A stretch of DNA of 64,000 nucleotides. Source: an uncultured bacterium. GTDB taxonomy: Bacteria > Bacillota > Clostridia > Lachnospirales > Lachnospiraceae. The number at the start of each line of letters is the position of its first letter. Position 1 is the first letter of the stretch. The stretch spans positions 1 through 64,000 of the forward strand of contig CAMWUN010000010.1 of NCBI GenBank assembly GCA_947177425.1, given 5' to 3'. Positions 13,411 through 32,707 of this stretch are shown piece by piece. The translations under genes were made by a program, and so were the position numbers. The notes under the pieces were generated by a model. That model searched no databases, was not told the DNA's origin, and saw nothing but the letters and a program-made list of their open reading frames with translations.

Positions 13411-14511
13411 ATGGAATATATAAAGAAGTGTCCGCTTTTTATCGTATTGATGGGCACAGGACTTTTTTTTACATTGATTGGAATGCTGGGTAAAAGTAAT
13501 ATATACGCGGGGCAGGAGTATGACCCGGTGACTACGCCCGCTCTTGCTCTGATGTTCCGGGGGGTTAACGATGATATTTACCCATGGCAGATTCTGGACG
13601 GGGGCAGCACACCAGTGATGGCTGTAAGCAGCGGACAGAAGGACACAGAAACTTCCGCAGAGGACGGAACTGGGAGTGAGGGACAAAAGGAAGCCGGAAT
13701 CTCCGCCCAAAATGACGGGCAGGGAGAAAATGGAACCGTAGGGGAAAATGATGGACAGAAAAAGCCAGGGGAAGAGGCAAGCCCATCCCCAAGCCCGGCG
13801 CAGGAAACAGACGACGCGCCTTTAGAGCGGCTGGCTCCTTTGAGGGAGAGTACCCATGACGAATACCTCAATCATATATCGGCAGATATTTACGGCGATG
13901 CAGGAGTCCGGCGGGCTGCAGCCTATGAATTTGACAAGGTGGATGAAAGCTATTTTGATGATGCCCTTTTTATTGGGGATTCCCGGACAGTGGGTCTTAG
14001 GGATTATACGGATTTGTCAGACCATGGGGACTTTTACTGTGAAACATCCCTTACCATTCATAAGGTGATGGAGGAGGACTTTGGAGGAAAGGGAACCATT
14101 GAGGACGCTTTGGAAAACAGGGATTATGGAAAAATTTATCTGATGGTGGGCATCAATGAACTGGGCAGGGGAACCACGGAAAACTATATGGAGGCTTATA
14201 CGGAGGTAGTGGATAAGCTACGGGAACTGGAACCGGAGGCAAAGATTTTCGTCCAGGCAGTCATGCGGGTTTCCGGGGAGAAAAGTGATTCGGACGCTAT
14301 TTTCAATAATAGCAATATTAATGCAAGGAATAATGCCATAGCGACCCTGGCGGACAACAGACAGATATTTTATATTGATGTGAATGAGGTTGTGTGCGAT
14401 GAGGAAGGAAATCTGAACGCAGAATATACACATGATAAGATTCATCTGTTGGGGATGTATAATGAATTGTGGAAGGAGTTTTTGCTTGCGCATGGGGTAC
14501 TTAATGATTAA
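13411..14511 (+). CDS. membrane-anchored SGNH-fold acyltransferase or esterase
   Basis: The 366-aa protein has an N-terminal membrane segment (about residues 8-27). A long low-complexity linker rich in Gly, Glu, Gln, Ser and Pro follows (about 70-130). The SGNH domain starts at about residue 180. Block I is FIGDSRTVG with Ser191 as the probable nucleophile, block III is MVGINELG, and block V is DKIHL with the Asp-x-x-His pair. The linker would hold the catalytic domain away from the membrane. It follows the MBOAT gene by 13 bases and is almost certainly its partner in polymer O-acylation. A free-standing esterase role is possible but less likely given the operon. Confidence 0.85.
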   Translation: MEYIKKCPLFIVLMGTGLFFTLIGMLGKSNIYAGQEYDPVTTPALALMFRGVNDDIYPWQILDGGSTPVMAVSSGQKDTETSAEDGTGSEGQKEAGISAQNDGQGENGTVGENDGQKKPGEEASPSPSPAQETDDAPLERLAPLRESTHDEYLNHISADIYGDAGVRRAAAYEFDKVDESYFDDALFIGDSRTVGLRDYTDLSDHGDFYCETSLTIHKVMEEDFGGKGTIEDALENRDYGKIYLMVGINELGRGTTENYMEAYTEVVDKLRELEPEAKIFVQAVMRVSGEKSDSDAIFNNSNINARNNAIATLADNRQIFYIDVNEVVCDEEGNLNAEYTHDKIHLLGMYNELWKEFLLAHGVLND

Positions 14512-14638
14512 ATAGATAATGAGATAGCGTTGAAACTTTAATGGTGACAGAAGGGATTGAATAACAGAAATTTATGTGTCTGGGATATTGATTTATGTAA
14601 TGAATAAGTACCAGCAGTAAAAAATAGAAGGTGATTTT

Positions 14639-15418
14639 TTGGATAGAACAGGGATAAAATGGTCAAAAGAAGAAACGATACTAGCATTTGATTTATATTG
14701 TAGAACATCGTTTGGCAAAATTAGTTCATCAAATAAGGATATAAAGGAATTGGCTGGTTTATTAGGAAGGACTCCTGGATCAGTGGCGCTTAAAATGCAT
14801 AATCTAGCTCATTATGACCCAGAACTTAGAAAAAGAAATATTACCGCAATGGCCCATGGAAGTAAGCTGGATGCTTTGGTGTGGGAAGAGTTTAGTAGTA
14901 ATTGGGAAGAGTTATCTTATCAAGCAAGATGCATACTGGCAGACCTAAAGAGAGAAAGTATTGATAAAATTGTTGATGAACCAGAAATTTGCATACTGCC
15001 AGAAGGTGGAGTTCGGGAACAGTTAGTAAAAAATCGAATTGGTCAGTATTTCTTTAGGATGGCAGTGTTAAATTCATATGAGTATAAATGTTGTATTACT
15101 GGCATGGCAATTCCTGAACTTCTTGTGGCAAGTCATATTAAACCATGGAAAGATGCTGATAGCAGGACAGAGCGGACAAATCCGATGAATGGACTTACGC
15201 TGAATGCACTCCATGATAAAGCATTTGATAGGGGACTTATAACGGTTACTACTAATTATATAATCAAGGTTTCGACCAAAATAAAATCCTCTGTAGGTGG
15301 AGACACTATGGAGGATTGGTTGTTGAATTTTGCTAATCATAAAATTAGGATGCCAAATAAATTTTTTCCCAAGAAGGAATTTCTGGAATTTCATAATGAT
15401 GTAATTTTTAAAATGTAA
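14639..15418 (+). CDS. HNH endonuclease, McrA/ScoMcrA-like
   Basis: The 259-aa protein has an N-terminal DNA-binding-like region (KWSKEETILAFDLYCR, then GRTPGSVALKMHNLAHYD, about residues 8-65). The C-terminal HNH_2-type nuclease domain (about 150-225) carries KCCITGM, ASHIKPWKDA and NGLTLNALHDKAFDRGLI, which supply the His-Asn-His residues. The start is TTG at 14639 with AGAAGGTG about seven bases upstream. The gene looks more AT-rich than its left neighbours, which suggests transfer. Similar proteins are found next to C5 methyltransferases, either cutting modified DNA or serving as type II nucleases. It is the first gene of the restriction island, 15 bases upstream of vsr, so the two probably share a transcript. 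Confidence 0.85.
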   Translation: MDRTGIKWSKEETILAFDLYCRTSFGKISSSNKDIKELAGLLGRTPGSVALKMHNLAHYDPELRKRNITAMAHGSKLDALVWEEFSSNWEELSYQARCILADLKRESIDKIVDEPEICILPEGGVREQLVKNRIGQYFFRMAVLNSYEYKCCITGMAIPELLVASHIKPWKDADSRTERTNPMNGLTLNALHDKAFDRGLITVTTNYIIKVSTKIKSSVGGDTMEDWLLNFANHKIRMPNKFFPKKEFLEFHNDVIFKM

Positions 15419-15433
15419 TTTGAGGCCGATAAA

Positions 15434-15895
15434 GTGGATAATCTTACCAAGGAACAAAGACATAAGAATATGCGGAATATCAGGTGCAGTGATACCAGCA
15501 TTGAATTGGTGTTGCGAAAGGAGTTGTGGGCAAAAGGATTCCGGTATAGGAAGAATTATTCTGCCCTGCCTGGAAAACCGGATATTGCATTGACGAAGTA
15601 TAAGATAGCTATTTTTTGTGATAGTGAATTTTTTCATGGGAAAGATTGGGAGGTCTTGAAGCCGCGCTTGGAGGCCGGAAACAATCCGGAATATTGGAAA
15701 AAAAAGATAATGAGAAACATGGAGCGGGACGATGAGGTGAATAAAGCGCTTATGTTTATGGGATGGACTGTGATTCGGTTTTGGGGAAAAGATATTTTGA
15801 AGAACTGTGGGGAATGCATCCGGATGATTGAAGAGTGTATTTTTGAATTGAATGTGCAGGGAGGCAGAATGATTCTTTGGGAGAACGATGAGTGA
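15434..15895 (+). CDS. vsr: Vsr-fold endonuclease, divergent and lacking zinc ligands
   Basis: Vsr nicks beside T:G mismatches created when 5-methylcytosine deaminates and so protects methylated sites. The 153-aa product has the family core: RHKNMRNIRCSDTSIELVLR (with the conserved Glu), GFRYRKNY, GKPDIALTKYKIAIF (catalytic Asp) and the ERD...GWTVIRFWGKDI end. Where the E. coli enzyme has FVHGCFWHHHHC, this protein reads FCDSEFFHGKDW. The catalytic histidine is kept, but the zinc-binding Cys, His and Cys are replaced, and the fourth ligand (in WECAL) becomes WGKDI. The start is GTG at 15434. The C5 methyltransferase at 19971-21035 makes a repair role sensible. It could instead be a restriction nuclease of the same fold. 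Confidence 0.85.
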   Translation: MDNLTKEQRHKNMRNIRCSDTSIELVLRKELWAKGFRYRKNYSALPGKPDIALTKYKIAIFCDSEFFHGKDWEVLKPRLEAGNNPEYWKKKIMRNMERDDEVNKALMFMGWTVIRFWGKDILKNCGECIRMIEECIFELNVQGGRMILWENDE

Positions 15896-15958
15896 TGGTA
15901 GAAATGTTTGGGGATGTCTGCTATAATCGCAGTGATTGCTGAGGATGGAGAAGAGAAA

Positions 15959-17107
15959 ATGCGTTTATTATATTCTAACATGCTCCCGCTGAAGCTGGGA
16001 AACGGGCAGACAGCTTTTATAGATTATTTTATGGATGCTGTGCATGAGGCGGATGAAATACATATTGCAGTGGGGTATGTGTCGAAGGCAGCTTTAAAAG
16101 AGTTACAGGTGCTGGTTGATGAGGCCGGAATAAAGAGGATCTGTCTGACAATCGGCATGTATTATCATGAGGGCATGCCGGAGGGTACATATAATGTAGC
16201 GGCGGCTTTGAATGAGGACTGGACCGGGCGCGGGATTGGTGAAGTGCGTCTGGTAAGGGCGTTTAAATATCATGGGAAAGCGTATGTTTTTTATAAGAAT
16301 GGAAAGCCGTTTTCTGCTGTGGTTGGTTCACATAATCTGGGAGCAATCAAGCTGGAGGCATCCAATCTGCGCCAATATGAATTGTCAGCGGTGACGGAGG
16401 AACCGGAGGAACTGCAAGAGATTTCTGCTCATGTCAGGGACATTATGCTTCCAAAGTGTTCGGCTAATATAGCTGACCTGTGGGATATGCCTTTGCTCCG
16501 CGAGGTCAACCGGGCGCTGGTGGATCAGGAATTCGTGTCCAAGGTTACGCCGGAGGAAGTAGATGCTTATAAGAAAAGGATGACGGGCGTTTCCTTTGAA
16601 CTTCCGTTGAAAGTGCCGGAGGATGAGAACGATAAGTCTATGAGGGGTTCCAATATCAATGTCTGCTATGCAAGCGGAAGAAAGCGTGTCTGGTGGGAGA
16701 TTGAAATGGTGGTTAGTAAGTCCATCAGGGACCTGCCGGGTTATCCTCTGCATCAGCAGCCTTTTATGGCGGTTACTGATGATGGCTGGAAATTCCAGGC
16801 CTGGACCTGCGGACAGAACAACAAAAATTTGTATTCAAAAGACGATTTGAAGATTATGGGGCGTTGGATTAAAGGGCGTCTTGTAGCGGCCGGCCTGGTG
16901 GAGCCTGTGAACCGGGTAGAAAGTGACCAGGGCGGGAAAGGCGTAATCACACATAAGATGCTGAATAAATATGGGCGTGATACGATTACGCTGACAAAGA
17001 CAGATGTTGTGACAAAGGCGGAGGACGGTACGGAACTGGAAGTATGGATGCTGTCTTTCCTTCCAGAGAGCAGGCATCAGCAGGAGGCGGCAGATGAAAT
17101 ATCTTGA
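15959..17107 (+). CDS. PLD-type restriction endonuclease subunit R1 (NgoFVII/CglI R-like)
   Basis: Probable nuclease subunit of an ATP-dependent restriction system. The 382-aa protein (ATG at 15959, GGAG about nine bases upstream) has an N-terminal phospholipase-D-fold domain. One HKD-like active site is formed by His105 and Lys107 (FKYHGKAYVF) with GSHN (Ser124, Asn126). The C-terminal region (about 215-375) includes FMAVTDDGWKFQAWTCGQNN and is the likely B3-like DNA-recognition domain known from BfiI, CglI and NgoAVII. It overlaps the Z1 ATPase gene by 14 bases. A related but shorter nuclease follows that ATPase, an unusual duplication. A longer in-frame start (15908, TTG) is possible but has poor translation signals. 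Confidence 0.85.
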   Translation: MRLLYSNMLPLKLGNGQTAFIDYFMDAVHEADEIHIAVGYVSKAALKELQVLVDEAGIKRICLTIGMYYHEGMPEGTYNVAAALNEDWTGRGIGEVRLVRAFKYHGKAYVFYKNGKPFSAVVGSHNLGAIKLEASNLRQYELSAVTEEPEELQEISAHVRDIMLPKCSANIADLWDMPLLREVNRALVDQEFVSKVTPEEVDAYKKRMTGVSFELPLKVPEDENDKSMRGSNINVCYASGRKRVWWEIEMVVSKSIRDLPGYPLHQQPFMAVTDDGWKFQAWTCGQNNKNLYSKDDLKIMGRWIKGRLVAAGLVEPVNRVESDQGGKGVITHKMLNKYGRDTITLTKTDVVTKAEDGTELEVWMLSFLPESRHQQEAADEIS

Positions 17108-18947
17108 AGCATACTTGAAGACGATAGAGGGGCGCGGAAATCAGCAGCTAGCGGATTCCATCCGGAAAACAGTGGATAATATTGCGCCGAAATATTTAGA
17201 AGGTTTTTCTTTTTGCGAGCATGAGGTGGGGCTTCTTTTTGGAAACGTGCAGTCCGGAAAAACGGGGCAGATGTTCGGAGTGATTTCTGTGGCGGCGGAT
17301 TTGGGGTTTCCAGTATTTCTAATTTTGACAACAGATAATGTCATACTGCAGCAACAGACGATTGAGCGTGTGAGGGAGGATTTAAAAGGGTTCTGTATAT
17401 GTGATGAATATGATTCGGAGGTTTTTGCAGAGAACTGTCTGATGCAGCCAGCCATTATTGTGTTAAAGAAGAATGTAAGGACTTTGAAGCAGTGGTCCAA
17501 TATTCTGGGGGCTACGGGCTTTATGAGGGGGAACCCGTTGTTTATTATTGATGATGAGGCAGATGCGGCTTCTCTGAATACGATGGTCAACAGAAGCAGC
17601 AGGTCTTCTATCAACAGGTATCTGGATGATATTAAGGCGAGAACTGCGTGTAGTATTTATCTGCAGGTTACGGGGACGCCGCAGGCGTTGCTGCTACAGA
17701 CAATGTCATCAGGGTGGCATCCATATTTTGCATATTATTTTCAGCCAGGGAATGGGTATCTTGGGGGAGATTTTTTCTTTCCGGCAGAGGGAGCCGGGGA
17801 GTGTATTTCTTATATAGATTCTTTGAGCGATCCGCTGGAAGAGGCATTGATGCATCACTTGGTGGTATCGGGTATCATGTTGACAGCGGGAAAAAGGGTA
17901 TCAAATTTTTTGATACATCCCAGTGTACGGAAGGCGGTGCATTGCAAATATCAGCAGGATGCGTTCAAGGTTTTGGCAGATTTTAAGGAAAGATGCAGGG
18001 ATGAAGGATTTGTTGCGCAGGTCATGCAGCGATATGAGCGGCTGAATCCGGTTAAGTTTGACAAAAAGGCGTTTGGCGAGGTTCTGGATTTTATACAAAA
18101 ACTGCTGGAGAATGATGAGGTCAAGGTTTTAGTTATGAATGGAAATTCTGGCGTGGATAGTGATGATTATGCATCAGGTTCTAATGTGATTATCGGCGGG
18201 AATACGCTTGGACGGGGCGTTACTTTTGCGGGGCTACAGACAATTTATTATACCAGAACAGCTAAGAAGCCGCAGGCAGATACGATGTGGCAGCACAGTC
18301 GTATGTTCGGATATGATAGAGATGCCGGGCTTATGAAGGTGTTTATTGACGAGCATTTGTATAAGTTGTTTGCGGATATCAATGCAACAAATAATTCAAT
18401 TATTTCTCAGGTGGAGAGGGGGACGGCGAATGTAAAGATTTATTATCCAGAGGGATTGAATCCGACAAGGAAGAATGTTCTGGATAATAAGAAGCTGGCA
18501 ATGATTTCAGGGGGGACAAATTACTATCCGTATTCACCGGAGAATGATACGATTTCTGATATTGATCGGCTTCTGGAAGCATTTGATGAGTCGCAGCCGT
18601 GCTATCAGGTGAGCCTTCGTCTGATGCAGGAGGTTTTTTCCCATATTAAGTCAGAGGATGATTTTAAGGTCAATGTTTTCCGCGCTATTATTAATATGGT
18701 GCTTGCTGAAAAACCGGCAGGCCAAGGGGTTCTGATTGTCAGAAGGAACAGGAATGTGGCGAAGGGTACGGGTGCGTTGCTGTCTCCCAATGATTGGCAA
18801 TTAGGCGCATCTGTCACGGACAAGATTGTTCTTACGATGTACCAGATGACAGGAGACAAAGGCTGGGGCGGAGAGAAGATCTGGGTTCCGAATATCAAAC
18901 TGCCGGATAAGATGATGTATTATGATATAATAGATGACAGTGAATGA
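17094..18947 (+). CDS. Z1-domain ATPase/translocase, restriction N-protein
   Basis: The 617-aa protein is a helicase-like ATPase: Walker A GNVQSGKT (residues 50-57), DDEAD box (153-157), TGTPQA motif III (193-198), and later GGNTLGRGVTF and DTMWQHSRMFGY as motifs V and VI. The region around and after motif V matches the Z1 domain. In the CglI and NgoAVII systems the equivalent N-protein hydrolyses ATP, binds the PLD nuclease and drives cleavage of unmethylated DNA. It overlaps R1 by 14 bases and precedes R2 by 30, with AGGAGG upstream. Function is assigned from motifs and neighbours; I recognise no nuclease motif in it. Confidence 0.88.
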   Translation: MKYLEAYLKTIEGRGNQQLADSIRKTVDNIAPKYLEGFSFCEHEVGLLFGNVQSGKTGQMFGVISVAADLGFPVFLILTTDNVILQQQTIERVREDLKGFCICDEYDSEVFAENCLMQPAIIVLKKNVRTLKQWSNILGATGFMRGNPLFIIDDEADAASLNTMVNRSSRSSINRYLDDIKARTACSIYLQVTGTPQALLLQTMSSGWHPYFAYYFQPGNGYLGGDFFFPAEGAGECISYIDSLSDPLEEALMHHLVVSGIMLTAGKRVSNFLIHPSVRKAVHCKYQQDAFKVLADFKERCRDEGFVAQVMQRYERLNPVKFDKKAFGEVLDFIQKLLENDEVKVLVMNGNSGVDSDDYASGSNVIIGGNTLGRGVTFAGLQTIYYTRTAKKPQADTMWQHSRMFGYDRDAGLMKVFIDEHLYKLFADINATNNSIISQVERGTANVKIYYPEGLNPTRKNVLDNKKLAMISGGTNYYPYSPENDTISDIDRLLEAFDESQPCYQVSLRLMQEVFSHIKSEDDFKVNVFRAIINMVLAEKPAGQGVLIVRRNRNVAKGTGALLSPNDWQLGASVTDKIVLTMYQMTGDKGWGGEKIWVPNIKLPDKMMYYDIIDDSE

Positions 18948-18977
18948 CGGTACTAATGTGTTTGAAAGGAAGGTGTC

Positions 18978-19934
18978 ATGAAGTATTCAGAACTGGCGAG
19001 AAGGATATTGTTTGAGCCGCTCCGCACAGGGGCAGACAGGCTGTGTATTTTGTCAGGGTACGCAACGCCGAACATGGCTTCGTGGCTGATAAAGAATTTG
19101 AAGGAGTTTAAATCTGGGCCTATAGATATATCTTTGATTGTGGGAATGGTTCCTTTTGACGGTCTCAGCATTGCTGTTCATGAGGGATTTAAGGAGTTGC
19201 AGAAGGAGAAGATGCCCCAGGAAGTGGCGCATTATCAGTGCAGTTATGTGTATGATTCTGCGCCGGTACATGCGAAAGTGTATGTCTGGCTTAAAGGGGA
19301 TGAGCCGGTTGTGGCATTTGCCGGTTCGGCAAATTTTGCGCAGAGTGCATTTGGGGAAATGCGCAGGGAATATATGGTGGAGTGTGACGCCCTGGAGGCG
19401 TACCAGTATTACTGTAGTGTAGAGAATGATACGATATTCTGTAATCATGCCGAAGTTGAGGAATATGTTGTGCTGTATCCCACGCACAGCGTTTTGGATA
19501 TGGAAAATAAGCCGGTCGGCAGTCTGTCAGGTGAAAATATAGAAAAAATCACGCTTTCCCTGCTTTCGGAAAATGGGGAAGTGGGGACTAAATCGGGGCT
19601 GAATTGGGGGCAGAGAAACAGGCGGAATAAGAATGAGGCGTACATACCGCTTCCTGCGTCTATGGCCAGGACGGGCTTTTTCCCGTTGAATAAACAGCAT
19701 TTTACAGTTGTTACGGATGATGGCCATCAGCTGATATTGAGGGTGGAACAGCAGGGGAATAAGGCGATTACAACACCGCTTAGTAATGCACAGCTTGGGG
19801 AGTATTTCAGAAACCGGCTGGGACTGGCGAATGGCGCTTATATTTGGAGAAGTGATCTGGAGGCATATGGACGTACAGATGTTACGTTTTATAAGCTGGA
19901 TGATGAACAGTTTTATATGGATTTTGCAGTGTAG
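18978..19934 (+). CDS. PLD-type restriction endonuclease subunit R2 (NgoFVII-like)
   Basis: The 318-aa protein has the same plan as R1 but diverges strongly from it. The PLD domain active site is His98 and Lys100 (VHAKVYVW) with AGSANFAQ (Ser117, Asn119). The C-terminal domain (about 208-318) contains FTVVTDDGHQLILRVEQQGN, parallel to FMAVTDDGWKF in R1, and ends DLEAYGRTDVTFYKLDDE, parallel to the R1 segment LNKYGRDTITLTKT. AAGGAAGG precedes the ATG. Standard CglI/NgoAVII loci, as I recall them, carry one R gene. Two copies on either side of the N-protein gene could give a heteromeric nuclease or two specificities. A terminator follows directly. Confidence 0.85.
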   Translation: MKYSELARRILFEPLRTGADRLCILSGYATPNMASWLIKNLKEFKSGPIDISLIVGMVPFDGLSIAVHEGFKELQKEKMPQEVAHYQCSYVYDSAPVHAKVYVWLKGDEPVVAFAGSANFAQSAFGEMRREYMVECDALEAYQYYCSVENDTIFCNHAEVEEYVVLYPTHSVLDMENKPVGSLSGENIEKITLSLLSENGEVGTKSGLNWGQRNRRNKNEAYIPLPASMARTGFFPLNKQHFTVVTDDGHQLILRVEQQGNKAITTPLSNAQLGEYFRNRLGLANGAYIWRSDLEAYGRTDVTFYKLDDEQFYMDFAV

Positions 19935-19962
19935 TAAAACCGGGGCTGAAGCTCCGGTTTTA
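19935..19962. terminator. bidirectional terminator between R2 and the methyltransferase
   Basis: TAAAACCGG (19935-19943) pairs with CCGGTTTTA (19954-19962). Inner pairs G-T, G-C and C-G close on a TGAA loop. The A and T ends make it usable in both directions for the convergent genes. Confidence 0.85.
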
Positions 19963-19970
19963 CGATAAGG

Positions 19971-21035
19971 TTATTCATTGATGTTTGGTTCAATGCTGGG
20001 GTATTCAACGCCGGCGAAACTTTTTAGAATAGCTTCAAAAATTATTTTTGCCCCATCACACGGAACAGCCATTCCAATCTGTTTCCTGACGCTTTCTTTA
20101 CTCCCAAAGAATTTAAAAGTATCAGGAAAAGTTTGAAGTCGGGCACGTTCCCGGTTTGTTAATGCTCTGGACTCTTTCCAGTGGTAAATGTGCGTTCCGC
20201 CGCCTCCGCTTCCAGTGACAGTATATGCTGGTTTTTTAGGGTCCAGCCGTTTGTATATCTGGCTGATTTTTGCACCATGGACATTTAGTTTCAGTTCGTC
20301 CGGCAGATCGGCAGTAAAGGCATTCTGGCCGGGAAGGATATGCTCAAGCCTTTTTATGACGGTTTCAGATTGTTTTGTCAGTTCGTTATTAAAGGCATCT
20401 GCCGGGATAGGCGGCTCTTCTATTGCTTTCCGGCAGGTATTATCAATGTCTGCATACGGTTTCGGAGAAGGAACATGATATGCAACACTAATATCTTTTC
20501 TGATGCCTACTATGATAATCCGGTGGCGGGCCTGGGGTATTCCGTATTCCTCAAATTTATATAAATGCGGGACTACGGTATATCCACCATGGGTTCCTGC
20601 TTTTTTCAATTCATCAATGATTTTGGTAAAGGCTTTTCCGTCATTGGCATTTCGGAGTCCGCCTACATTTTCTGCAACGAACCATATAGGGTTGTATATA
20701 TTTAATACTTTTACTCCGTAGGAATAGAGGGGGCCAAAGACGCCGTTCATGCCTTTCTGCTCTCCGACTACACTGTAATCATTGCATGGGAATCCAAAAG
20801 CCAGAGCGTCAATTTCCGGCAGGTTTTCTAGGTTAAATTCACGGATGTCTTTGTGATATACACTTTTTGGATCATCGCGGCAAATGTTATACCGGTATGT
20901 TTCGCAGGTGTCTTTATCATAGTCATTTGCCCATTGGTGGACAATCTTATAGTTATCATCCCCGATATCGGCATTAAGGGCTCCCCACGCAATTCCGCCA
21001 GGACCGCAGAACAACTCTCCTAATCTATAAATCAT
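19971..21035 (-). CDS. DNA (cytosine-5) methyltransferase
   Basis: The 354-aa enzyme transfers methyl from SAM to cytosine C5. Motifs in order are: I, LGELFCGPGGIAWGA (residues 5-19); IV, GFPCNDYS with catalytic Cys84; VI, ENVGGLRN; VIII, QARHRIIIVGIRKD; and the C-terminal IX-X part with LTNRERARLQTFPDTFKF. The length is short for the family, leaving a compact target-recognition region between VIII and IX. It is transcribed toward the nuclease genes and overlaps the regulator gene upstream by 11 bases. Its role is to protect host DNA from the R1/N/R2 complex; the recognition sequence cannot be read from the protein. Confidence 0.95.
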   Translation of the reverse strand: MIYRLGELFCGPGGIAWGALNADIGDDNYKIVHQWANDYDKDTCETYRYNICRDDPKSVYHKDIREFNLENLPEIDALAFGFPCNDYSVVGEQKGMNGVFGPLYSYGVKVLNIYNPIWFVAENVGGLRNANDGKAFTKIIDELKKAGTHGGYTVVPHLYKFEEYGIPQARHRIIIVGIRKDISVAYHVPSPKPYADIDNTCRKAIEEPPIPADAFNNELTKQSETVIKRLEHILPGQNAFTADLPDELKLNVHGAKISQIYKRLDPKKPAYTVTGSGGGGTHIYHWKESRALTNRERARLQTFPDTFKFFGSKESVRKQIGMAVPCDGAKIIFEAILKSFAGVEYPSIEPNINE

Positions 21036-21384
21036 TTTGGCCCTCTCTTTCTTTTTCGTGCTGATAAATTAAATAGTCAATTTGGTTTTGTATTTGTTTT
21101 CTGTCTTCTAGGCTTAATTTTTCTATGCCTTTAAAGCAGGTTTCCATGTAGGCATCTATATCTTCGGGGCCTAAGTATCCGGCTTTTTGAAACAAATCGG
21201 TAAGTTTGATATTATAAAATAAAGCTAGTTTTTTTAAGGCTTTGGGGGAAGGATTCCGAGTGATATTGCATTCTAAGCGGCTTAGCTGAGAAATTGTTAT
21301 TCCGGTTTCCTTTTCCACATCCCTTGTGCTTAAATTATTTTGTATCCTCATTGTCTTTAGATATTGTCCAAGTGTTTCAGCCAT
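21025..21384 (-). CDS. Xre-type HTH regulator of the restriction-modification locus
   Basis: The 119-aa protein from the ATG at 21384 has an N-terminal Cro/C1 helix-turn-helix (residues about 8-65: LKTMRIQNNLSTRDVEKETGITISQLSRLE) and a helical C-terminal tail. GAGGTGA precedes the ATG. The reading frame stays open far upstream to 22173, but that part runs antisense to spoVAD and is not coding. Its stop overlaps the methyltransferase start, so it is co-expressed with it. The role recalls controller (C) proteins that time methylation before restriction, though it is longer than classical C proteins. Half-sites in its promoter support autoregulation. Confidence 0.88.
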   Translation of the reverse strand: MAETLGQYLKTMRIQNNLSTRDVEKETGITISQLSRLECNITRNPSPKALKKLALFYNIKLTDLFQKAGYLGPEDIDAYMETCFKGIEKLSLEDRKQIQNQIDYLIYQHEKEREGQNDL

Positions 21385-21404
21385 ATCATCACCTCTATTA
21401 TGGA

Positions 21405-21433
21405 AGTATATCACATATGCTGCGAAAATGCAA
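21405..21433 (-). promoter_or_regulatory. promoter of the regulator-methyltransferase operon
   Basis: On the minus strand TTGCAT (21428-21433) and TATACT (21405-21410) are spaced by exactly 17 bases, about 20 bases upstream of the regulator ATG. The -35 hexamer overlaps the first GCAACAAA half-site. Confidence 0.7.
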
Positions 21434-21470
21434 CAAAAAAGGATATTTGTTGCGATAAAGCAACAAATAT
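21430..21470. promoter_or_regulatory. operator with three GCAACAAA half-sites
   Basis: GCAACAAA occurs at 21430-21437 and 21460-21467, and its complement TTTGTTGC at 21446-21453. The inner pair extends to a perfect 11-base inverted repeat (21443-21453 with 21460-21470, six-base gap). The sites cover the -35 region and its upstream flank, as expected for an autoregulating Xre/C-type protein. The binder is inferred from position. Confidence 0.65.
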
Positions 21471-21682
21471 TATAAAATAAAGTGCCTGAAAATATATGGA
21501 GATTGTACGAATTTATGATATGATGGATAAAATACGAAAAAGTATAGTGAGATAGAACTGCAATAGAGAAGAGACATGGTGTGAGGATATGGCTTATATA
21601 ATAAGGAGAATAAGGAAGAAGGTTATGAGACATTGAAATCATTGGAAAAACTGCTGGCGGCTTTACAAAAATAAAACGAATA
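21471..21682. other. AT-rich intergenic stretch between the RM island and spoVAD
   Basis: No complete gene is visible. A 28-codon open stretch without a start (about 21589-21675) ends EEGYETLKSLEKLLAALQK before a stop and could be the tail of a lost gene at the island edge. That reading is weak. Confidence 0.3.
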
Positions 21683-21735
21683 AAAATCTCCAGATGCGTA
21701 AAACTAATGGAAAGTAAATCATCTGGAGGTTTTTT
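21683..21735 (+). promoter_or_regulatory. hairpin containing the spoVAD ribosome binding site
   Basis: AAAATCTCCAGATG (21683-21696) pairs over 14 bases, with one T-G wobble, with CATCTGGAGGTTTT (21720-21733). The 3' arm contains GGAGG, six bases before the spoVAD ATG, and runs into a T-tract (21730-21735). It therefore looks both like a terminator and like a Shine-Dalgarno trap. Confidence 0.6.
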
Positions 21736-22770
21736 ATGGAAACAACGGTTGGAGCAATTTTTGAGCAGGGACAGCGCAGTATCAAGGTGCCAGTTCCCGT
21801 TTATATAAGGGCAAGTGCGTCGGTAGTGGGAACCAAGGAAGGGGAAGGGCCTTTTGGGGACTGCTTTGACATGGTGGGAACAGATGATAAGTTTGGCTGT
21901 GATACATGGGAAGAGGCGGAAAGTACGCTGCAAAAGGAAGCCCTTTCCATTGCCATCGGCAAATCCGGATTGAGAAACGAGGACATCAAGTATTTGTTTG
22001 CAGGGGATTTGCTGGGACAGTCGATTGCAAGCAGCTTCGGCCTTGGGTCTTTTCAGATTCCTCTGGTGGGGATGTATGGCGCCTGTTCCACATGCGGGCT
22101 GTCCATGTCCATGGCGGCAATTATGATTGCGGGAGGAATGGCGGAACATGCCGCCTGTGTGACTTCCAGCCATTTTGCCAGTGCGGAAAAGGAATTCCGC
22201 TTTCCTTTAGGATATGGGAATCAAAGACCTCTTTCCGCTACCTGGACGGTAACGGGCAGCGGCGCTTTTATTTTAAGCAGCATAAAGAGCAATACGGACA
22301 GGGCGATGATTGACGGCCTGACAATCGGAAAAATTGTGGATTTCGGTCTGAAAGACTCCATGAATATGGGCGCATGCATGGCGCCTGCGGCTGCTGATAC
22401 CATTTACCAGCATCTGGTGGACTTTGACAGGAAGCCTTCTGATTACGATAAGATTATTACTGGAGATTTGGGAAGCGTAGGGCAGAAAGCCCTTTGGGAT
22501 ATGATGAGGGAAAAAGGGATGGATATTTCCAAGGTCCATATGGACTGCGGCATGGAAATTTATGACCAGAGCCAGGACGCCCATGCAGGGGGAAGCGGAT
22601 GCGGATGCAGCGCTGTGACCCTGTCGGCCTACATTTTGAAACAGCTTGAAGAAGGGAAGTGGAAGAGGGTTCTGTTTGTGCCCACAGGGGCGCTTCTTTC
22701 CAAGACCAGCTTTAACGAAGGACAGAGTATTCCGGGGATTGCCCATGGAGTGGAATTGACAGGATGCTGA
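21736..22770 (+). CDS. spoVAD: stage V sporulation protein AD
   Basis: Soluble thiolase-fold protein of the SpoVA complex that binds dipicolinic acid at the spore inner membrane. The 344-aa product has the family length. It has typical segments EGPFGDCFDMVGTDDKFG, GMYGACSTCGLSM, HFASAEKEFRFPLGYGNQRP, GDLGSVGQKALWDMM and DAHAGGSGCGCSA. In Bacillus it lies directly between spoVAC and spoVAE; here those genes are 10 kb to the left (inverted) and 15.5 kb to the right. The GGAGG is inside a 14-base-pair hairpin, so expression may be controlled after transcription starts. A terminator follows. Confidence 0.97.
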   Translation: METTVGAIFEQGQRSIKVPVPVYIRASASVVGTKEGEGPFGDCFDMVGTDDKFGCDTWEEAESTLQKEALSIAIGKSGLRNEDIKYLFAGDLLGQSIASSFGLGSFQIPLVGMYGACSTCGLSMSMAAIMIAGGMAEHAACVTSSHFASAEKEFRFPLGYGNQRPLSATWTVTGSGAFILSSIKSNTDRAMIDGLTIGKIVDFGLKDSMNMGACMAPAAADTIYQHLVDFDRKPSDYDKIITGDLGSVGQKALWDMMREKGMDISKVHMDCGMEIYDQSQDAHAGGSGCGCSAVTLSAYILKQLEEGKWKRVLFVPTGALLSKTSFNEGQSIPGIAHGVELTGC

Positions 22771-29863: not shown

Positions 29864-30070
29864 ATGGAAGAGAGAGAACAATTAATAAAACTAAAGGAAG
29901 AAAGTGGACTCAATTGGAAAGAATTTTCGGCATACTTTGATATACCTTACCGGACTGTGCAGGATTGGGAACATGGAAAAAGAAAAATGCCTTCCTATTT
30001 ACTCCGTCTCATGGAATATAAGTTAAAAATGGATGCAGGAATTAAAGAAAAAGGAGATATAAATGGATAA
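29864..30070 (+). CDS. small HTH protein, first gene of the helicase cassette
   Basis: The 68-aa protein is almost entirely one helix-turn-helix (LKEESGLNWKEFSAYFDIPYRTVQDWEHGKRKMPSYLLRLMEYKL), of the kind found in Xre-like or YdaS-like domains. It has no partner domain. Its last eight bases overlap the ATG of the helicase gene. A regulator of the cassette is the simplest reading; the repeat in its promoter supports this. It could also be an antitoxin-like or DNA-targeting subunit. Confidence 0.8.
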   Translation: MEEREQLIKLKEESGLNWKEFSAYFDIPYRTVQDWEHGKRKMPSYLLRLMEYKLKMDAGIKEKGDING

Positions 30071-32060
30071 CAGTTTATTTTATATAAATTTTGAGCCGGA
30101 TGATGAGCAGAGAATATTTATTGAACGAGTGAAAGCAGTGACAACAGATAACATAGATCCATTTTATGTTGTCAAAAAGCCTGTTATTGAGAAAAAGAGT
30201 GATTATGAGTATGAGGGAGCATTTGTTATCCTTGTTCCTAAACATAAAATGATGTTTTTTGATTTTGGAAAGAATAATGAAATGTTCGATGAATATGTAT
30301 CGGATTTTATTGAAGATATTGGATATATTGCCAAAAAATATGAGTTTTTAAAATTAATTGGCCGTCCAAGACAATGGAAAGAAGATTTTGTTGTTAAAAT
30401 AAGTAAAAAGCAGTGTAAAGAATCTTCCTTTGATGAACTGCTTAAAGAAAACTGTATTAAGGATGTAGAACTTATTCGAAAAGGTGAAATTCTTATATCT
30501 TTGGCTACAGGCAGTATAAATGAAGCAGAAAGACTGGGAGAAGGTATTCCTGATAATGTTCTGGATCAAATAAAAAGAAAAATAATTCTATTTGACGGTG
30601 AGCAGACCAAGTTCGTTTTTGATGAACCGGCTAAAAAAAGAATTACCATTCAAGGATTGGCCGGAACAGGGAAAACAGAATTGCTGTTGCATAAAATTAA
30701 AGAATTATATATATCCTCAGAGGAAAACAGAATTGTTTTTACCTGCCATAATGAAATTCTTGCAGACAGCTTACGGAAACGCGTACCAGAATTTTTTAAT
30801 TTTATGAAAGTGGAGGAACAGATTAAATGGAATGAAAGACTTTGGGTTATGAGAAGCTGGGGAACACAAACGGATTGTAACTCCGGTGTATATAGCTATA
30901 TATGCCATTACTACAGTATTCCTTTTAGCAGATTTTCATATAATACAACGTTTGATTCCATTTGCAAAACAGCTTTATATAATCTTAGCATGATTGAAGA
31001 TTTTGAATGCTGTTTTGATTATATATTAATTGATGAGAGTCAGGATTTTTCGGACGGCTTTTTTAAACTTTGTGAAAAAGTATCAAGGAAGTGTGTATAT
31101 GTAGCCGGAGATATTTTTCAGGATATTTTTGAGAATAAATCTTTGAGTGTTGTCAACCCCGATTTCCTTTTAAACAAATGTTACAGAACTGACCCGAGAA
31201 CATTAATGGGTGCTCACGCAATTGGTATGGGACTCTTTGAAAATAAATTGCGCTGGCTTAAAGATGAAGAATGGGAAGCCTGTGGATATGATATTAGAAA
31301 AGAGAACGGAATTGTTGAACTTCATAGAAAACCACTGAAAAGATTTGAGGATATTGATATTGATACCACAAATGGAATTGAATTATGTCAGGTTAATGAT
31401 ACAGAATATTTAGAAACAACTTTGAATATTATTGATGAGATTAGGAGGAAAAACCCCACGGCAGCTCCAGATGATATTGGAATTATGTTCATGGAAAATA
31501 TTGAGAAGAATTATAAATTAGCTTCTCAATTACAATTTTTAATTAAAGAAAAGTTTAACTGGGATGTAAATATTGGATACGAAACAAAAGAAAAAAGAAA
31601 AGGTATGCTTTTTATCAGCAATAGAAATAATGTTAAGGGACTGGAATTCCCATTTGTTATATGTATTATGCAGGGGGAACTGACGGATGATTTTCAAATC
31701 AGAAATTCTGTTTACATGATGTTGACGCGTTCCTTTTTAACCTCATATTTTGTCGTGCCATTAGCAAATAAATCATTGGATAAACTTATGCAGGGAATAA
31801 AATTTGTCAACAGGAAAGGATTCCTAAAAGTTACAGAACCTTCGGAAGAGGAAAAAGCCAAACTATATAATGCAATTATTAATAGAAAGAATGTCCACAA
31901 ATCACAATATGAGTTAGTGGAAGAAATTATGGACGAATTGGGTATAAGCAAAAAGGATAGAAAAAAGATGCATAAAATAGTCGAAGTAATGTGTAGTAAA
32001 GAGACTGACAGAGAGAAACTTTATGATGTAATCCAGACAAATTACGCATTGATGGAGTAA
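30063..32060 (+). CDS. UvrD-like SF1 helicase with unassigned N-terminal region
   Basis: The 665-aa protein has a complete SF1A-type motor: Q-motif-like ILFDGEQTKF (about 175-184), Walker A GLAGTGKT (198-205), Walker B ILIDESQDF (321-329), motif III VAGDIFQDIF (347-356), motif IV NKCYRTDP (371-378), motif V NVKGLEFPFV (523-532) and motif VI YMMLTRS (551-557). The first 170 or so residues and the C-terminal 75 match no domain that I know. No nuclease motif is evident. The coding sequence is visibly more AT-rich than the flanking chromosomal genes. It is tightly packed with an HTH gene and an unknown gene, and is probably a defence ATPase. It is not the standard UvrD or PcrA, which is larger and lacks this N-terminal region. 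Confidence 0.85.
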   Translation: MDNSLFYINFEPDDEQRIFIERVKAVTTDNIDPFYVVKKPVIEKKSDYEYEGAFVILVPKHKMMFFDFGKNNEMFDEYVSDFIEDIGYIAKKYEFLKLIGRPRQWKEDFVVKISKKQCKESSFDELLKENCIKDVELIRKGEILISLATGSINEAERLGEGIPDNVLDQIKRKIILFDGEQTKFVFDEPAKKRITIQGLAGTGKTELLLHKIKELYISSEENRIVFTCHNEILADSLRKRVPEFFNFMKVEEQIKWNERLWVMRSWGTQTDCNSGVYSYICHYYSIPFSRFSYNTTFDSICKTALYNLSMIEDFECCFDYILIDESQDFSDGFFKLCEKVSRKCVYVAGDIFQDIFENKSLSVVNPDFLLNKCYRTDPRTLMGAHAIGMGLFENKLRWLKDEEWEACGYDIRKENGIVELHRKPLKRFEDIDIDTTNGIELCQVNDTEYLETTLNIIDEIRRKNPTAAPDDIGIMFMENIEKNYKLASQLQFLIKEKFNWDVNIGYETKEKRKGMLFISNRNNVKGLEFPFVICIMQGELTDDFQIRNSVYMMLTRSFLTSYFVVPLANKSLDKLMQGIKFVNRKGFLKVTEPSEEEKAKLYNAIINRKNVHKSQYELVEEIMDELGISKKDRKKMHKIVEVMCSKETDREKLYDVIQTNYALME

Positions 32061-32062
32061 AT

Positions 32063-32707
32063 ATGGAAAAAGAAGCAAGTTACAGCATGAGTAAAGGAAT
32101 CTTTGAAATGGCAAGCAGGCCATTGCGAAGTAGGCAGGAAGCAATCTTGCTATTACTTTATACCATTAGAATGTTTGAAGTTGATGAATTGATTGCAGAG
32201 AACAAAACGATAAAAGTGGTTATTTCAATCAATAAAATGAATCGTATTTTTTATGTTTTAGAAGATAAAATATTTTCTATGCAATTCCCATTTTTTGTGG
32301 AAATGGAACATGATAAAATTGCCAGAATCTATGATACCAGAACAGGTTTAGATATTGATTCACGGCTTGTTTCAACGCTTATTGGAATATTTGAAAAAAC
32401 GAATACTGGCAATTCTTCGTTCGATAGTCTTTTTGATGAAATAATGTATTGTGGGGATAATCTGCCAAATGTTGGTATAGAGCAGATATGGGAGGTAGTA
32501 AAATTTATATCTACATATGATTTGGGATATTTAAGATATGATTATGATGAAAAACATAAAAAAGGTTTATTGCATCCGGTTAACCATCTGGATATTTGTC
32601 TGGATACGGCAGCAGCGTATAAAATTGGATTAAAAAAGTCTCTTAATTATGAAATGTTCAAGGACATTCTTGATACAACAACGAACTGCTTTTTCTTAAA
32701 TGTATAG
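32063..32707 (+). CDS. unassigned 214-aa protein of the helicase cassette
   Basis: The protein begins two bases after the helicase stop, with GGAG upstream, and is in the same operon. It appears soluble and mixed alpha/beta; I see no membrane segment or recognisable catalytic motif. The opening part (MASRPLRSRQEAILLLLYTIRMFEVDELI) is helical, and the middle (DTRTGLDIDSRLVSTLIGIF) could be a binding or effector module. Composition is AT-rich like the helicase. It may be the effector or partner of the helicase in a defence system. A MITE-like palindrome starts directly after its stop. Confidence 0.75.
   Translation: MEKEASYSMSKGIFEMASRPLRSRQEAILLLLYTIRMFEVDELIAENKTIKVVISINKMNRIFYVLEDKIFSMQFPFFVEMEHDKIARIYDTRTGLDIDSRLVSTLIGIFEKTNTGNSSFDSLFDEIMYCGDNLPNVGIEQIWEVVKFISTYDLGYLRYDYDEKHKKGLLHPVNHLDICLDTAAAYKIGLKKSLNYEMFKDILDTTTNCFFLNV

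Follow-up and report, generated by a model that had tools for sequence, protein, structure and literature searches.

The window analyzed here, a 64,000-nucleotide stretch of DNA from an uncultured gut bacterium of the Lachnospiraceae, carries two R-type nuclease genes (R1 and R2) on either side of one ATPase gene (N), whereas the published CglI complex is an R2N2 assembly built from a single kind of R (PMC4267653). The question raised by this locus is what a second R-type protein does beside an R1-N pair. Gene calls together with Pfam, TIGR00632 and PADLOC analyses confirmed the genes, order and strands given in the preliminary description: HNH, Vsr, R1, N and R2 on the forward strand and convergent C5 cytosine methyltransferase and Xre genes on the reverse strand.

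The first two genes encode an HNH endonuclease with a C-terminal HNH_2 domain (14639..15418, forward; Pfam HNH_2, 3.3e-12; PADLOC HNH, 2.6e-81) and a Vsr-type T:G mismatch nickase (15434..15895, forward; Pfam Vsr, 1.2e-28; 127 bits over the TIGR00632 cut-off). The HNH product is likely an accessory nuclease; its gene was present in 5 of the 34 R1-N-R2 loci and 4 of the 35 R2-without-R1-N loci described below. HNH and Vsr genes also adjoin in L021, L033, L034, L046, L061 and L063, which include both kinds of locus, and the pair (14639-15895 in the window) looks like a separate module whose genes travel together. At the other end lie the methyltransferase (19971..21035, reverse; Pfam DNA_methylase, 4.7e-68) and the Xre-type regulator (21025..21384, reverse; Pfam HTH_19, 2e-12), which is possibly a controller of the methyltransferase operon.

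On one side of the island lies a lipase-like gene (13411) and on the other spoVAD (21736). Among 29 other genomes of the genus, fewer than 200 bp separate these flanks in 21, a longer stretch (1.5 to 16 kb) does so in six, and in two the flanks lie on separate contigs. The six longer stretches are different inserts at the site that the window occupies (13411-22770), and two of them (G770 and G780) were read as a sugar-transport cassette, named from the sequences without a family search. Because the flanks are nearly joined in most genomes and enclose other inserts elsewhere, the restriction island is itself an insert, placed at a used site. A further stretch of the window (30063-32707) has a low GC content (~0.32 versus 0.46) and contains a UvrD/AAA-type helicase gene and a gene for a 214-aa protein without a Pfam match.

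R1 (15959..17107, forward) consists of a PLD nuclease domain (RE_NgoFVII, 2.1e-33) and a C-terminal B3-like DNA-binding domain (RE_NgoFVII_C, 3.3e-24) and matches R.NgoAVII (4rct; E value, 4e-40). The likeliest start is the ATG at 15959, because homologues begin with MKLLYSN or MELLYSN and the start of the NgoAVII match agrees with it. N (17094..18947, forward) is a Z1 ATPase in which Walker A (GNVQSGKTG, 17241..17267) and motif II (DDEAD, 17550..17564) were invariant among five of five aligned N proteins. R1 and N both matched solved parts of CglI/NgoAVII, as the preliminary description had proposed, and the locus includes the C5 methyltransferase; judged from sequence, R1 with N is a CglI/NgoAVII-type ATP-dependent restriction enzyme. 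In such enzymes, R is described as binding the site through its B3 domain, N in complex with R as hydrolyzing ATP, and the R dimer as forming one active site from two PLD domains (PMC4267653); communication between complexes along DNA has been proposed (PMC5737866).

R2 (18978..19934, forward) has the same two domains (RE_NgoFVII, 1.3e-49; RE_NgoFVII_C, 1e-44). Its predicted structure (pLDDT 88.0) best matched R.NgoAVII in the PDB, with BfiI (2c1l) also among the structure matches, and both Pfam and the model support a B3 domain in R2. Both proteins carry the active-site pattern reported for them: H105-G-K107 (16271..16279) and GSHN (residues 123-126) in R1, and H98-A-K100 (19269..19277) and GSAN (residues 116-119; 19323..19334) in R2. 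A shared VTDDG motif does lie within both B3 domains, but it is a family feature and nothing peculiar to the R1/R2 pair, since R of NgoAVII has ITDDG at the equivalent place.

PF20731 had matches in 14 of 392 genomes from the order and in 10 of 391 from the class, and N in 15 of 391 genomes of the class, four of which, the window included, scored above 1000 bits. When named genomes were scanned once with an R2 alignment, 44 loci emerged; the viral contigs contributed 12 (R2) and 15 (N). After nine duplicates were removed by contig (L032, L056, L062, L114, L116, L120, L125, L127 and L128), the set comprised 34 loci in which R2 accompanies R1 or N, 35 with R2 and neither, and 15 with R1 and/or N but no R2, where absence refers to the stretch examined and does not imply absence from the genome because several contigs are short. 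The plasmid collection contained one distant record (22% identity) and the phage collection two unannotated phage-labelled records (59% and 53%). All seven genes recur in unchanged order in L033 and L034, and many further genomes have R1-N-R2; the gene set is far from a chance assembly. A literature check, which reached few subscription papers, found no report of the two-R arrangement.

Among the 34 R1-N-R2 loci, three R2 genes were left unread: L026 (a chimera), L054 (a masked stretch, in which HxK reads HAN) and L122 (stops). The 35 loci without R1-N gave 33 readable R2, 27 of them intact, or 29 readable after four B3-only matches (L029, L030, L146 and L147) were set aside. A PLD part is absent from L087 and L088; in L087 (333-1798), a prophage-like contig with an integrase, the gene after the methyltransferase encodes 126 aa of B3 alone, without a nuclease domain. 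Three loci are broken: L026, L057 and L122. In L026 (2033-3294), N is missing and R1 continues, in another frame, as the B3 end of R2, the two B3 regions having been brought together by a deletion or an assembly join. In L122 (1568-10159), R1-N and an R2 full of stops lie next to a second, broken R1-N-Vsr remnant, whose best pieces are 82-86% like the window.

The origin of R2 was addressed by phylogeny. A recent duplication of R1 was excluded, as R2 groups with the R2 of methyltransferase-R2 loci. Its kin are the nucleases of these loci, where neither R1 nor an ATPase turned up in the stretch examined. In a tree of 59 R2 rows, one branch (99/97) separated the 27 intact R2 of methyltransferase-R2 loci from 32 others, namely all 31 R2 of R1-N loci and L083, which is cut by a contig end. 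These 32 form a single starred clade that adjoins, and lies within, the methyltransferase-R2 group, as would be expected from one capture of R2 from that lineage.

R2 is nevertheless dispensable, because R1-N loci without R2 are nested inside the R1-N-R2 clade. Presence of R2 required four changes, at least three of them forced by starred branches (L118 and L122 left out); if R2 was captured once, its history is one gain and about three losses. Where R2 is present, it lies close to N, with a gap of 16-38 bases in 20 of the 24 relatives measured, as if the two were co-translated. R2 and N distances were correlated over 25 loci (r = 0.56; none of 2000 permutations was as high), more weakly than those of R1 and N (0.92).

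The preliminary description held that neither nuclease looks dead. This is true of the window, where both sites are intact, but the window is atypical. The HxK and GSxN residues of R1 were intact in all 46 proteins read (33/33 and 13/13), whereas those of R2 beside R1-N were intact in only 5 of 31 readable loci: the window, its two near relatives L033 and L034, and one other pair, L035 and L041. R2 of methyltransferase-R2 loci retained them in 27 of 29 alignable full-domain rows, the exceptions being L057 (gene cut short, with no R1 or N in the preceding 8 kb) and L083 (R2 from the first base of the contig). Clustering at 95% identity gave 3 of 26 intact beside R1-N versus 26 of 28 without R1-N. 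In the 26 site-less R2, the catalytic lysine is replaced by asparagine (24) or serine (2). In the R1-N-Vsr-R2 clade the lysine alone is replaced, with the histidine and GSAN kept in the five rows read, and some residual function may persist there.

The active and site-less states required two changes on the R2 tree and two on the R1-N tree (30 rows). Two losses of the active site fit best because of the branch order on the R1-N tree, where the window lineage is separate and L035/L041 fall with the R1-N-Vsr-R2 clade (99/94). A single loss with one regain could instead account for the pattern, since the lysine and asparagine codons are one base apart.

Loss of the active site was not accompanied by general decay of the gene. 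The 27 R2 proteins from methyltransferase-R2 loci served as the reference, and positions with at least 90% conservation among them were counted, 31 in B3 and 26 in PLD. Site-less R2 (26 sequences) retain 27 and 10 of these, respectively, whereas the five captured R2 with an intact site retain 30 and 21. The scan patterns fell in B3, which biases toward a conserved B3; without the 11 pattern positions, site-less R2 still keep 17 of 20. Most pairs were saturated at synonymous sites, so that few carry dN/dS values, which for site-less R2 were 0.05-0.11 for PLD (4 of 12 pairs unsaturated) and 0.01-0.07 for B3 (3 of 12). The predicted structure of a site-less R2 still has the fold of R.NgoAVII. With B3 nearly unchanged and dN/dS low, the site-less genes are, by these measures, not pseudogenes. 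Random decay of one copy, which would have spoken against a functional two-nuclease system, is not the general case, the three broken loci notwithstanding, as R1 is unaffected in all 46 read and R2 retains its B3 domain.

These data bear on the idea that the window holds two independent enzymes under one methyltransferase, R1-N being ATP-dependent and R2 cutting alone like BfiI, with loss in relatives reflecting redundancy. Window R2 has every motif residue, and R2 without R1-N, its site nearly always intact, is the commoner state of the family here; redundancy predicts whole-gene decay, however, and both domains of site-less R2 remain under constraint. We regard this idea as unlikely.

The methyltransferase is 95-96% identical to that of the window in L033 and L034 and 70-79% identical in other R1-N-R2 loci. 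In the motifs VIII-IX region, median identity to the window was 0.76 for R1-N-R2 loci (32 rows), 0.75 for R1-N loci (11) and 0.65 for R2 alone (28), and these identities would fit one target class for all loci. The rows compared include L026 and L122, and the L046 row (0.20 identity) is the wrong methyltransferase. A second methyltransferase for a second specificity was rejected: within the C5 class searched, a second match occurred in only 3 of 34 R1-N-R2 and 5 of 35 R2-without-R1-N loci. GCSGC, GCWGC and GCAGC are among the targets given for M.CglI-related methyltransferases (PMC10734518), and a PLD cluster is listed with NgoFVII as a GCSGC enzyme (PMC4081073). R2 might therefore widen the target range, with R1 and R2 reading different members of a degenerate site (e.g., GCSGC and GCWGC) guarded by one methyltransferase. 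The B3 sequences are far apart (R2 is 20% identical to NgoAVII B3), but the target-recognition region is equally close to that of the window with and without R2, and we consider a wider range quite improbable.

Because the R dimer makes one active site, a site-less R2 could not complete one with R1, and its kept value would therefore lie in DNA reading, assembly or control. Control could take the form of a brake, in which R2 dampens restriction by pairing with R1 or by filling sites that it does not cut, for example when the island enters an unmethylated host. A heterodimer with site-less R2 would be dead, given the need for two PLD domains (PMC4267653); the retention of B3 with loss of cutting agrees with this, as does the B3-only protein of L087. 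R2 is intact in the window, however, and pairing is uncertain because the PLD domains of R1 and R2 are only ~20% identical (tblastn), so that we doubt the brake about as much as the independent enzyme. We give roughly an even chance to R2 serving the R1-N machine as a second target reader or assembly part, a role read from sequence comparison, and place this first, followed by the brake, the independent enzyme in the window and, last, the wider range. R2 would then be a captured nuclease that kept B3 and lost cutting in most R1-N loci, and the window would represent a stage before catalysis was lost. A second nuclease losing its cutting residues with its DNA-reading half kept suggests that it is becoming a separate target-reading part. 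The R1-N loci without R2, the stops in R2 of L122 and the weaker R2-N correlation stand against the reader or assembly role. The earlier suggestion of a heteromeric nuclease or a two-specificity system is thus partly supported.

In comparison with CglI and NgoAVII, the window shares R1 and N (with homology along the protein or across the C-terminal domain), the C5 methyltransferase and the three-activity logic; it differs in the extra R2, in the R1-N-R2 order with convergent methyltransferase and Xre genes, and in the added HNH and Vsr genes. BfiI, an ATP-independent type IIS enzyme, has the same PLD and B3 domains and no motor, as does R2 alone with a methyltransferase; window R2 likewise carries both domains and HxK in one chain, but adjoins N. 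In type I systems, a separate HsdS specificity subunit is a non-cutting DNA reader beside the motor and nuclease. This likeness would be one of working only, as no proteins are shared with R1-N-R2, and it differs in that R2, the candidate reader, would once have been a nuclease, and in that R1 brings a B3 domain itself. Tentatively, R2 could be a nuclease midway in conversion to an HsdS-like site-recognition subunit of a translocating ATP-dependent enzyme. Capture would have preceded the loss of catalysis, the window would show an intermediate that is still active, and two branches would have lost the same lysine. R1-N-R2 is a genuine, recurring form of CglI-type restriction that presents an unusual evolutionary series.
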